From Dehalococcoidia bacterium (lineage in GTDB: Bacteria > Chloroflexota > Dehalococcoidia > DSTF01 > JACRBR01), in contig JAKFYB010000008.1 of the NCBI GenBank assembly GCA_021731085.1, positions 62,001-126,000 on the forward strand: a stretch of DNA of 64,000 nucleotides, read 5' to 3'. The notes under the pieces were generated by a model that was not told the origin of the DNA, did not search any database, and saw nothing but the letters and a program-made list of their open reading frames with translations. This document shows positions 13,705 through 17,654 of the stretch, piece by piece. Each line of letters opens with the position of its first letter. Position 1 is the first letter of the stretch. The translations under genes and the position numbers were made by a program.

Positions 13705-16248
13705 ATGCGCCGCCTGCCCGCAATCACCGCCGGACTCATCGCGCTCGCAGCGCTCGTCGCCACCTTCACCGCGATCTCCATGCGCGTCGCCGAAGTCACA
13801 AACGCCGGCGAACCAGCCCCCGGCATCATCTTCCACATCGACTGCAACACGACGCTCGCCGGCATCCAGGATCAGTGCACGTACCCGACGGGTACGGTGC
13901 AGGTGGATGTTGACGTGGTCGTCGAGAACAACATAGGCGCAGCCTTCGATCTGGGAGCAGTCGGCTTTGAGTTGGTGAGCCTCGGTAATACGTTTTTCCG
14001 CCCGCTGTCTCCACCTTCATGCGATCCCGCGGGCAAGAACTGCAATCCGGACTTCAACGACACCGATATCAACGCACCCGATTGGGCGTGCAGTCCTCCC
14101 CCTCCGAGCGCTGACATCAACACAGACGGCAACCCGCAGACAGCTCAGGCATTCATAGGTTGCTTCAACGCGGGAATTCCGCCGTTCGTGAACGTGGCAC
14201 CCAGCTCGTTCTTGCGAATCGCGCGAACGAGGTATGCAGTTTCGTCCGACGTGACAGTTCCGCTGAGCTTGCGCGAGGTGAACATCTACGATCGGCACTT
14301 CGTTGAACTTGGTACATGCCCGACAATCATTGTTGCCGCAGACTGTCGGACAGCATCCGTGGTGATAGGCAGCGGCATCGCACCCACCCTCACGCCCACG
14401 CCGACATTCACCGTCACGCCAACGAACACACCCGGGCCGCAGACGACGCCGTCCGGCACGCCCACCGGCGCCGTTACCGACATCGTCGCCCTCAACCAGA
14501 GCGTCTGCATCGTTGCGAGCTCCATCTTCGCCGGAACCGCTCCGGTCGACGCCGCCCTCGGATGCCAGGGCGCGTCGTTCCAGCCGGACATCCAGAGCTT
14601 GATGGAATGTGTGCACCACCGACCGTTCTGCCCCGATGAGCCTCCACTCAACAAGGTCTTTCAACAAATCGACCCCGTCGACTTCGCCATCATCGACAGG
14701 GATCGCGATCAGTTCCACGCCGGGCAGGTCATGATGATCGCCGCCTTCGTAGACGGCGACTACCCCGTTCTGTTCGAGACTGAACAGGGCGTCCTGCTCA
14801 ATCACACCGGGTATCAGATGGGCCAGGAGGCCCTCTGCTACACGCCAAACCACGTCGACGCTAACCCCGGCGATCCCGACTGTGACGCGGATCCAACTAC
14901 CATCGGTGATGGAGTCGTGGTCGTGAAGATCTATATCGACGAGAGTGTCTCGCGCGGCACATTCGATGTGCGCGTCACCCAGGGGTTCGTCTCTCGCACG
15001 ATCCCGATCAACGTCGTTGGCCTTCCAACCACCATCGTCGTGGAGTCGCTTGACGACAAGACATCGATCGCCACCGGCGCGAAGCCGCGTACGATCGCCG
15101 GATTCACTCCGGACGTCGACGCCTGTGACTTCGCCGTCGATCCGCCCTTCTCAGGTGCCGAGTCTTCTCGAAAGACCAACCTGCTCATCAAGGTCCTCGA
15201 TGACGAGGGCGAAGAGGTTGTCGGTTCCCTGGTCGGCTGGACGCGCACCGGCAGCCGCTTCGACAGCGCGGCATTCGGCAGGACGGACATGCCTCATGGT
15301 GGCGCCGCCATCCCCCAGATCCCCATGCTCGATCTCGGCGCCCTGGGAGTGGGTTTCGTACAAACCATGTGCGGCGGCGCTACAGCCGGCACGATCAATG
15401 CCGTCCTGGTCTTCGACCCAGTCCTCGATTTCATGGCGCCACAGGACTACTCACTGCCGTACTCCATCGCATCGACCGGCACGCCTCCATCACCAACGCC
15501 GACGCCAACAGCCTGCGCAGACGACGCAGACTGCGACGGCGTGCCTGACAGCACCGACAACTGCGGCTACTACCCGCACAACGGGAACTTCTCCAACCTC
15601 ATAGGCCCCATCCCAAACCCCGATCAGGCCAACAACGATCGCAACTTCATCGACAACTCCCCGCCCTACGCGGCCGTCGCCGACGACCGCACCCGTGCCG
15701 ACTCCGACGTCTCCGGCGATGCGTGCGACACAGACGACGACAACGACGGACTCTTCGACATCGATGAAACCGGAGGCCCGCCCTGTCTCGCCGCCAGCGG
15801 CCCCACTGATCCTCTGAAGGATGACTCCGACAACGACCGCTTCCTCGACGCTGCTGAGTGCGCGATCAGCACCGACCCACTCGACCCGACTGACAAGCCG
15901 CCACTCACAGAATGCGGCCCACCCGGAGAGACCCTGTTTGCAATCCTCAGCGCGCGCACCGCGTTCTGCTACTTCGGTATCTACTTCAACTACCACTTCG
16001 CCAGTGTTGATTCAGATGCGGATGGCGATCTGCCAGCCGACGGCACCTACGATATCTGCGAGATCGCCTCCTTCAACGGCGACCGCCTCGTCAACGTCGC
16101 CGACACTGGCATGCTGGCTTTCGGCATCACCCGCGGGGTCACCCTCGCGAACATCGACCTCAACCGCGACGGCGTCCTCAACCCGGCCGACCAGGGAAGT
16201 CTGGCTGCAATTATTTCGTCGCGGGCCTGTCCTCTCCGGTTCAACTAG
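13705..16248 (+). CDS. Large secreted protein with Ca-binding TSP3-like repeats and C-terminal dockerin-like module
   Basis: 847 residues. The N-terminal hydrophobic segment (about 5-25) is a signal peptide or anchor. A beta-rich region with many Cys (about 30-220) ends in a Thr/Pro linker (TLTPTPTFTVTPTNTP). A second extracellular region follows to about 600, then Asp-rich repeats of thrombospondin type 3 style (DADCDGVPDSTDNC, DTDDDNDGLFDIDETGG). The last 55 residues contain two F-hand-like segments, FNGDRLVNVADTGMLAF and DLNRDGVLNPADQGSLAAI, matching the duplicated Ca-binding pattern of dockerins. A TATAAT at 13641-13646 may be its -10. The next gene, 56 bases on, encodes a cohesin-like surface protein, so the pair may bind each other. 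No enzyme domain is recognised. Confidence 0.75.
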   Translation: MRRLPAITAGLIALAALVATFTAISMRVAEVTNAGEPAPGIIFHIDCNTTLAGIQDQCTYPTGTVQVDVDVVVENNIGAAFDLGAVGFELVSLGNTFFRPLSPPSCDPAGKNCNPDFNDTDINAPDWACSPPPPSADINTDGNPQTAQAFIGCFNAGIPPFVNVAPSSFLRIARTRYAVSSDVTVPLSLREVNIYDRHFVELGTCPTIIVAADCRTASVVIGSGIAPTLTPTPTFTVTPTNTPGPQTTPSGTPTGAVTDIVALNQSVCIVASSIFAGTAPVDAALGCQGASFQPDIQSLMECVHHRPFCPDEPPLNKVFQQIDPVDFAIIDRDRDQFHAGQVMMIAAFVDGDYPVLFETEQGVLLNHTGYQMGQEALCYTPNHVDANPGDPDCDADPTTIGDGVVVVKIYIDESVSRGTFDVRVTQGFVSRTIPINVVGLPTTIVVESLDDKTSIATGAKPRTIAGFTPDVDACDFAVDPPFSGAESSRKTNLLIKVLDDEGEEVVGSLVGWTRTGSRFDSAAFGRTDMPHGGAAIPQIPMLDLGALGVGFVQTMCGGATAGTINAVLVFDPVLDFMAPQDYSLPYSIASTGTPPSPTPTPTACADDADCDGVPDSTDNCGYYPHNGNFSNLIGPIPNPDQANNDRNFIDNSPPYAAVADDRTRADSDVSGDACDTDDDNDGLFDIDETGGPPCLAASGPTDPLKDDSDNDRFLDAAECAISTDPLDPTDKPPLTECGPPGETLFAILSARTAFCYFGIYFNYHFASVDSDADGDLPADGTYDICEIASFNGDRLVNVADTGMLAFGITRGVTLANIDLNRDGVLNPADQGSLAAIISSRACPLRFN

Positions 16249-16304
16249 GTATACTCCTCAGCAGAATCCAACCACTTCGAGGGCATTAATAGCGAGGCGC
16301 CAGG

Positions 16305-17654
16305 ATGCGATACGCTCGACCACTTCTGCTTGCAGGTTCATTGATCGCGCTCGTCGCGACGTTCGCCGTCATGCGCATGACCACGGCCGACGCGGGTGCG
16401 CTCGAACCGACCATCACGCTGGTCGCACCTGCGGATGACGTGCATGTGGGTGACGAGTTCATCGTCACCGCTTATGCCGAGCACTTCTCCGGTGTCGGCG
16501 CCTTCGAACTCGAGCTGCGTTTCGATGATGAGGCGGTCGCGTTCCTTTCCTTCGATGAGGGCGATGTGCTCGGGAGCACGGGGCGCACCGTGTACTGCAT
16601 CCCCGGCCCATCAACCAGCCAAGACGTCATGTTCGGTTGCGCGACCTCCGGCGCTGCACCGGGCGCCAGCGGCGAAGGCATCCTCGCGTGGTTCACGTTC
16701 ACCGCCCTTCAAGAGGGCAACACCGACATCCGCCTGCGCGATGCCGCGATCGCCGACGTGAACGGCGACCCGATCGACGTCGACACAGAAGGCACAACCG
16801 TCTACATCAGCGATGCGTCGGCCGGCGAAGAGACGGTCACACACACGCAGACCGTCGCTGCACAGCCGACCTCTGGCACGACATCAACCGTCGAGCCCGA
16901 CGAAACGGTGGAGGTCACCGAGACCGCAGCGCCGGATGACACAGAAACCGCCGTGCCCACGGAACAAGCCGCGACCAACACGCCCGTCCCGACGAGCACC
17001 GAGGCCGTGGCGACCGAGACACCCGTAGTGCCTGAGACACCGGACGCCGAAACGCCCACCGTCGCCGCCGAAACAGAGACACCCGAACCGGAAGAGACGG
17101 TCGATGTGACACAGACGCCCGAAGAAGGCGAGACCACCACGCCCGAGACGACGCAGACGGTCGAGACGGAGACAGAGACGCCGGCGGCCGAAGAGACGCC
17201 CACTCCCGAAGAGCGTGCTACGGAAACAGCCACACCGGATCTGACCAAGCCATCGGAGACGCCGGAGAGCACCGGCACGCCCGGCTTCGTCCCGCCGACC
17301 GCCACCCCCGGCCACCAAACGGCAACGACGACGTCCGTCGCAACATCAACGAACACGGTCGTCGTGAACAAGACGCACACACCGGCCGCATCGACCAGCA
17401 CGCCGGACACGGGCACGACGCCCGGAGCAACGTCATCGCCAGGCGTAGGCGCCACCGTCGCTGCAACGCAGACCGAAACCAACGAGGTGCTCGGGGTAAC
17501 CAACCCTGAGCCCGAAGGCATCGTGCTGCCCGTGACGGGCAGTGGCGGCGATGACGGATCCGGTGGCTCGCTCGGCTACGTTGGCATTCTGCTCGCGGCA
17601 GGCATGGCAGCGACGATGGCCGTGTCAGTAGCCGTCAGACGGCGCGCACAGTAG
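16305..17654 (+). CDS. Cohesin-like surface protein with LPxTG sorting signal
   Basis: 449 residues. A signal peptide (1-30) leads into a beta-sandwich of about 135 residues (36-171) with cohesin features: the DDVHVGDEFIVTAYAEHF start, a FELELRFDDEAVAF strand pair, and GILAWFTFTALQEG. A 230-residue Thr/Pro/Glu linker follows. The C-terminus has LPVTG (408-412), a Gly/Ser stretch, a hydrophobic segment (about 423-444) and RRRAQ: the three-part signal used by sortases to attach proteins to the cell wall. The dockerin-bearing gene lies 56 bases upstream on the same strand. The inferred role is a surface scaffold that holds its neighbour or other dockerin proteins. No sortase gene is in the window. 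Confidence 0.78.
   Translation: MRYARPLLLAGSLIALVATFAVMRMTTADAGALEPTITLVAPADDVHVGDEFIVTAYAEHFSGVGAFELELRFDDEAVAFLSFDEGDVLGSTGRTVYCIPGPSTSQDVMFGCATSGAAPGASGEGILAWFTFTALQEGNTDIRLRDAAIADVNGDPIDVDTEGTTVYISDASAGEETVTHTQTVAAQPTSGTTSTVEPDETVEVTETAAPDDTETAVPTEQAATNTPVPTSTEAVATETPVVPETPDAETPTVAAETETPEPEETVDVTQTPEEGETTTPETTQTVETETETPAAEETPTPEERATETATPDLTKPSETPESTGTPGFVPPTATPGHQTATTTSVATSTNTVVVNKTHTPAASTSTPDTGTTPGATSSPGVGATVAATQTETNEVLGVTNPEPEGIVLPVTGSGGDDGSGGSLGYVGILLAAGMAATMAVSVAVRRRAQ

Follow-up and report, generated by a model that had tools for sequence, protein, structure and literature searches.

Two adjacent genes of an uncultured Dehalococcoidia bacterium, here called ORF A and ORF B (ORF, open reading frame), encode a dockerin protein and a cohesin protein with a wall-anchor signal. 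ORF A is likely displayed through its dockerin on the cohesins of ORF B or of a large scaffoldin-like protein, the locus being one site of a genome-wide, non-cellulolytic display system. The genes lie in a stretch of 64,000 nucleotides (the window), which is contig C1 bases 62001-126000 of a 3.58 Mb draft genome (GCA_021731085.1; G000 in the genome set) with a completeness of 96.6%. The features that carry this reading, namely the cohesin fold, the dockerin membership, the family expansion, the scaffoldin-like protein, the co-occurrence, the sortase genes and the conserved clusters, come from sequence or predicted structure. The first-pass annotation of the window had described cohesin and dockerin neighbours outside clostridia, and family profiles, the Pfam score of ORF B and its AlphaFold2 (AF2) fold bear this out.

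Modules of ORF B and ORF A

ORF B (449 aa; 16305..17654, + strand) is a mono-cohesin protein with a signal-peptide-like start and a wall-anchor signal. Full-length Pfam and NCBIfam scans list neither a cohesin nor a dockerin match for ORF A or ORF B. The isolated domain of ORF B (residues 35-168; 16407..16808, +) reaches 26.1 bits with the Pfam cohesin model PF00963, against a curated cut-off of 24.1, and passes only without the linker, so the linker is probably masking its signal. The cohesin model matches 27 of the 27 members of the alignment of this domain, and a leave-one-out profile gives 109.5 bits (E 4.8e-31). The AF2 model, built with 32 sequences, is an all-beta domain with a predicted local distance difference test (pLDDT) of 95.6 and a predicted template modelling score (pTM) of 0.88. 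Its top Foldseek match in the PDB is 2xdh, a non-cellulosomal cohesin of Archaeoglobus fulgidus (E 1.3e-11, template modelling score about 0.8, 18% identity), and the best 50 PDB matches listed are all cohesin-containing entries. As modelled, the ORF B domain is a true cohesin with a cohesin-type beta-sandwich fold. Two cysteines, C66 and C80 in domain numbering, are invariant across its family and stand on consecutive strands of the AF2 model, so a disulphide between them is likely.

The cohesin is followed by a linker of 231 residues (29% T, 15% E and 13% P; 16827..17519, +) and by a sortase sorting pattern (17526..17651, +), formed by LPVTG, a hydrophobic, transmembrane stretch and RRRAQ, which supplies the RRR. 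This agrees with the first-pass description of a cohesin-like domain on a linker of about 230 residues with a wall-anchor signal. By the sorting pattern and the presence of sortase genes in the genome, ORF B is predicted to be a sortase-anchored surface protein.

ORF A (847 aa; 13705..16248, +) has a signal- or transmembrane-like start, the domains AN and AM, TSP3-like repeats and a C-terminal dockerin with two F-hand repeats (residues 789-837; 16069..16215, +). The two dockerin-style segments pointed out in the first-pass annotation, NGDRLVNVADTGML and NRDGVLNPADQGSL, both sit inside this dockerin. A family profile built with ORF A left out scores it at 56.6 bits (E 8.5e-15), and the dockerin profile reported none of 200 shuffles of the full ORF A and none of 300 shuffles of its tail. 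The profile of this family also matches solved cellulosomal dockerins (2y3n_B, E 3.5e-10), and several members of the family pass the Pfam cut-off. The generic model PF00404 gives 12.6 bits for the ORF A dockerin, below its cut-off of 22.9. At loose E the generic Pfam dockerin search also matches nine control genomes, so weak generic matches were not used alone as evidence. A chance resemblance, in which acidic repeats and a beta-sandwich are misread as dockerin and cohesin, would agree with the full-length Pfam scans that list neither module; it is refuted by the leave-one-out profiles, the shuffles and the structure model of the cohesin, and was rejected on the first two.

AN (residues 36-226; 13810..14382, +) was overlooked in the first-pass annotation. 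Its leave-one-out profile gives 166.8 bits (E 2e-48), its profile-profile comparison with the cohesin family by hhalign gives a probability of 96.1% (E 3.7e-9), PF00963 is matched by 3 of 14 AN relatives, and an iterated AN profile recovers modules 5-7 of the scaffoldin-like protein. By these sequence comparisons AN is a divergent cohesin-like domain at the N-terminus of ORF A. For the middle domain AM (residues 256-590; 14470..15474, +), the stretches taken around matches in the own genome contain no paralogue. AM relatives occur in other genomes, with 37-40% identity in G002 and G001; they have LPxTG-like tails and, at the C-terminus, an invasin-D3/Big_1-like domain. The acidic repeats before the dockerin (15511..15999, +), first read as TSP3-like, have weak profile support in ORF A itself (TSP_3 E 0.005, below cut-off), while among the paralogues with a dockerin no domain is more frequent than TSP3 repeats.

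Both genes lie on the + strand with 56 bp between them, where the first-pass annotation had placed them, and neither has an enzyme domain, as it had also said. A promoter and terminator scan of the pair found nothing exceeding shuffles. The neighbouring genes, by reading a threonine-synthase-like gene upstream on the opposite strand and HxlR-like regulator and phosphoglucomutase-like genes downstream, are apparently unrelated.

Dockerin set, scaffoldin-like protein and sortases of the genome

Dockerins were counted in the genome at a profile score above 30 bits, with ORFs read from stretches around the matches. This gives 56 dockerin ORFs, a few of which are fragments or extend past the edge of a stretch; the first-pass annotation had anticipated more dockerin proteins elsewhere. 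The dockerin lies at most 25 residues from the C-terminus in 53 of them, and two types are distinguished, 'NxADxG' (43/56, ORF A among them) and 'NSxDLL' (11/56). By Pfam, the cargo includes peptidases and amidases (three subtilases, one C25 peptidase and a penicillin amidase), hydrolases (a beta-lactamase-fold hydrolase, a PHB-depolymerase-type esterase, a GDSL lipase and two metallophosphoesterases), three glucose/sorbosone dehydrogenases, propellers of the Kelch, NHL, RCC1 and PD40 types, and LamG, HtaA, lamin-tail, Ig-like and NPCBM domains. The dockerin protein bearing the HtaA domain, which is of haem-binding type, is on contig C28 (L075:9828-11636). Tandem unrelated proteins with almost identical dockerin tails are found on C1 at 17-28 kb (L062) and on C8 at 2.6-8.7 kb (L061), which suggests that new cargo recently acquired copies of the tail.

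The scaffoldin-like protein (2,494 aa; C11:94453-101937, outside the window) carries eight cohesin-like modules, the last followed by a dockerin-like segment, and a tail of LPFAG, a transmembrane stretch and basic residues. At full length it has no Pfam match, so no cellulose-binding module was detected, in a scan that also missed its cohesins. This protein (L059:4454-11938) and ORF B are both Pfam-silent at full length while their isolated cohesins match, and the masking seems due to long linkers rich in T and P. Such cohesins escape standard full-length domain scans, probably because of these linkers, and the scans should be read with caution. The word 'mini', used for the scaffold in the first-pass annotation, is too narrow for a genome that also encodes sortases, a scaffoldin-like protein with eight cohesins and numerous cargo proteins, enzymes among them.

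A multi-cohesin scaffoldin, dockerin cargo and a surface anchor form a cellulosome-like architecture, and LamG and NPCBM domains are present in a few cargo proteins, so a cellulosome for polysaccharide breakdown has to be considered. It is very unlikely and largely refuted, as the scaffoldin scan detected no cellulose-binding module and a glycoside hydrolase domain is absent by Pfam from all 56 dockerin ORFs, on which ground the cellulosome reading was rejected.

AN has 37 matches in the genome. One ORF with five tandem AN domains and without any Pfam match (C24:53506-58030; L191:507-5031) is possibly a second scaffoldin class. The two sortase genes of the genome are at the start of contig C21. 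A three-gene cohesin/dockerin cluster and AN-LPNSG genes stand at the end of C22 (L070, L195), and this end and the sortase-bearing end of C21 (L185) are probably one cluster broken by assembly, the apparent counterpart of the sortase-linked clusters of relatives.

Relatives and the partners of ORF A

Named relatives by sequence are Chloroflexi or Dehalococcoidia metagenome genomes. Their scaffoldin-like proteins have up to nine cohesins, several of these proteins end in LPDTG or LPNTG with a transmembrane stretch and arginines, and sortases are present in 20 of the 20 genomes searched. The ORF B cohesin family is found in 42 of 294 genomes of the class at E 1e-8 and in 10 of 301 genomes of the phylum at E 1e-12, and AN matches were confined to two families of the order, f1 and f2. 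The dockerin profile of the own genome misses the dockerins of family f4, which the generic model scores, and this shows that dockerins have diverged from one family to another. On L132, a contig assigned to Planctomycetota, a scaffoldin cohesin shares 64% identity with one from Chloroflexi, which points to misbinning or transfer.

Across 40 genomes, in which cohesins were searched by the ORF B domain and dockerins by Pfam, the two are correlated (Spearman 0.89; Fisher P 1.5e-8), and as these genomes are related, the P of 0.001 obtained after collapsing them to families is the fairer figure. Within the order, the two f3 genomes lack matches to both cohesin and dockerin and yet have sortases, which makes them a useful contrast. 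As an alternative without mutual binding, the cohesin-like domains could be only Ig-like spacers, and the dockerins could act, stabilised by Ca2+, as C-terminal caps or sorting tags. The dockerin is nearly always the last module and often stands behind TSP3 repeats, as a generic C-terminal tag would, but the presence of cohesins and dockerins coincides across genomes, and the ORF B model is nearest to bona fide cohesins, several of which were solved in dockerin complexes, which makes the cap and spacer explanation improbable.

Gene clusters recur among the relatives. In G002 (C2), G001 (C260) and G008 (C3), three sortase genes are preceded by AN and AM proteins bearing LPxTG-like tails, and these loci (L178, L179 and L180, respectively) resemble a dedicated surface-assembly cluster, possibly pilus-like. 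G005 (C7) and G004 (C10) each have a contig on which cohesin and cohesin-dockerin genes are about 5-6 kb away from the sortases.

Joint action of ORF A and ORF B is best supported by a single ORF of 1,347 aa in the same-genus genome G001 (contig C194; L189:1-4044), which is incomplete, as it begins at the contig start, and reads AM, cohesin, AN, AN, cohesin, linker and LPATG. Its last third matches the cohesin and tail of ORF B with E 3e-56 (low-complexity filter off), its cohesin alone matches that of ORF B with E 2e-21 and 42% identity, and its remaining modules match those of ORF A with E 2.5e-28 and 2e-20. Modules that G001 has on one anchored chain are here divided between two proteins, one bearing the dockerin and the other the anchored cohesin, which suggests that ORF A and ORF B may be two halves of one surface unit. 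When the order of the genes flanking the fusion was compared with that of the window, no neighbour was shared. On the adjacency and the fusion, the predicted binding of ORF A to ORF B is plausible.

Several observations weigh against this pairing or against the dockerin itself. No other genome was found to carry ORF A and ORF B side by side as a gene pair, the first F-hand of ORF A has Ser instead of Asp at position 1, and the AF2 single-sequence model of its dockerin has low confidence (pLDDT 44). Profile and structure prediction, proposed in the first-pass annotation as a check of both modules, are in agreement for the cohesin; for the dockerin the family profile matches, and the model is too uncertain to weigh either way. 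In addition, the dockerin type of ORF A is a common one, found in about 40 proteins, which makes an exclusive pair unlikely, and a private pairing of ORF A with ORF B was downgraded. The same commonness, together with the many further cohesin modules of the genome, favours a variant of the same system with another partner, in which ORF A docks mainly on the C11 scaffoldin or on other cohesins, ORF B takes other dockerin proteins and the two genes stand side by side by chance or only for co-expression. This variant is a real possibility, against which stand the adjacency of the two genes and the same modules on the single G001 chain.

Display of ORF A through its dockerin on cohesins of ORF B or the scaffoldin, the preferred reading, would proceed as follows. 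After sortase processing ORF B would be fixed to the envelope, and its long linker would present the single cohesin. Secreted ORF A would plug its C-terminal dockerin, by Ca2+-dependent and non-covalent binding, into a cohesin of ORF B and/or of the large scaffoldin, and docked ORF A would show its AN and AM domains outward without an LPxTG anchor of its own. AN, at the other end of ORF A, might itself receive a dockerin, which would make ORF A a putative adaptor. The assembled surface would probably serve adhesion and the local turnover of proteins, esters and phosphate. More tentatively, much of the secretome in this Dehalococcoidia order might be displayed by a cargo-neutral plug-and-socket system, with two or more types of dockerin, multi-cohesin receptors anchored by sortase, the lineage-restricted AN as a further socket class (some AN in tandem arrays of five) and evolutionary switching between LPxTG anchoring and dockerin plugging.

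Comparison with known cohesin-dockerin systems

Cohesin-dockerin pairs are best known from machines that degrade cellulose. If uncultured Chloroflexota have a set of cellulosome size that lacks glycoside hydrolases, the pair would also serve as a general surface display system, which would explain how these bacteria retain secreted enzymes and adhesins, and the cysteine-paired cohesins and the AN domain are possible orthogonal plugs. Like the cellulosomes of Clostridium thermocellum and Ruminococcus flavefaciens, the set has a multi-cohesin scaffoldin, C-terminal dockerins on dozens of predicted secreted proteins and cohesin proteins with predicted surface anchors. Unlike them, it belongs to Chloroflexota, its dockerin proteins lack glycoside hydrolases, no cellulose-binding module was detected, its cohesins have two invariant cysteines and it has the extra AN family. 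R. flavefaciens has 222 dockerin proteins, with many peptidases and unknowns among them (PMC2930009).

Non-cellulosomal sets as such are already known from ANME archaea, Planctomycetes and Cloacimonadota, and the closest solved structure to the ORF B cohesin, 2xdh, is also non-cellulosomal. The planctosome of freshwater Planctomycetes, a complex proposed for peptide degradation (PMC6461901), shares TSP3 repeats and lamin-tail domains with the present set; one anchoring and one adaptor protein are proposed there, whereas the genome studied here has 56 dockerin ORFs, anchors of sortase type and a scaffoldin-like protein with eight cohesins. The complex of the Cloacimonadota Ca. Stygibacter (PMC8542988) also has a large scaffoldin-like protein and dockerins on S8 and C25 peptidases, but it has GH18/GH57, CBM2/CBM3 and a C-terminal-domain type of attachment, in place of which the present set has LPxTG-like anchors and no glycoside hydrolase. 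ANME archaea (PMC9012536) have expanded sets as well, with up to five cohesins and a dockerin per protein; they differ in being archaeal and in that ABC transporter substrate-binding proteins are common as cargo.

A study of Anaerolineae (Chloroflexi) found neither cohesin nor dockerin (PMC4877987), and no description of a dockerin in Dehalococcoidia, Chloroflexi or Chloroflexota was found in the open-licence literature, so the system is apparently undescribed. What is new in comparison with the known sets is the cellulosome-like architecture and scale without glycoside hydrolases, together with the sortase-type anchoring, the cysteine-paired cohesins and the lineage-restricted AN family.

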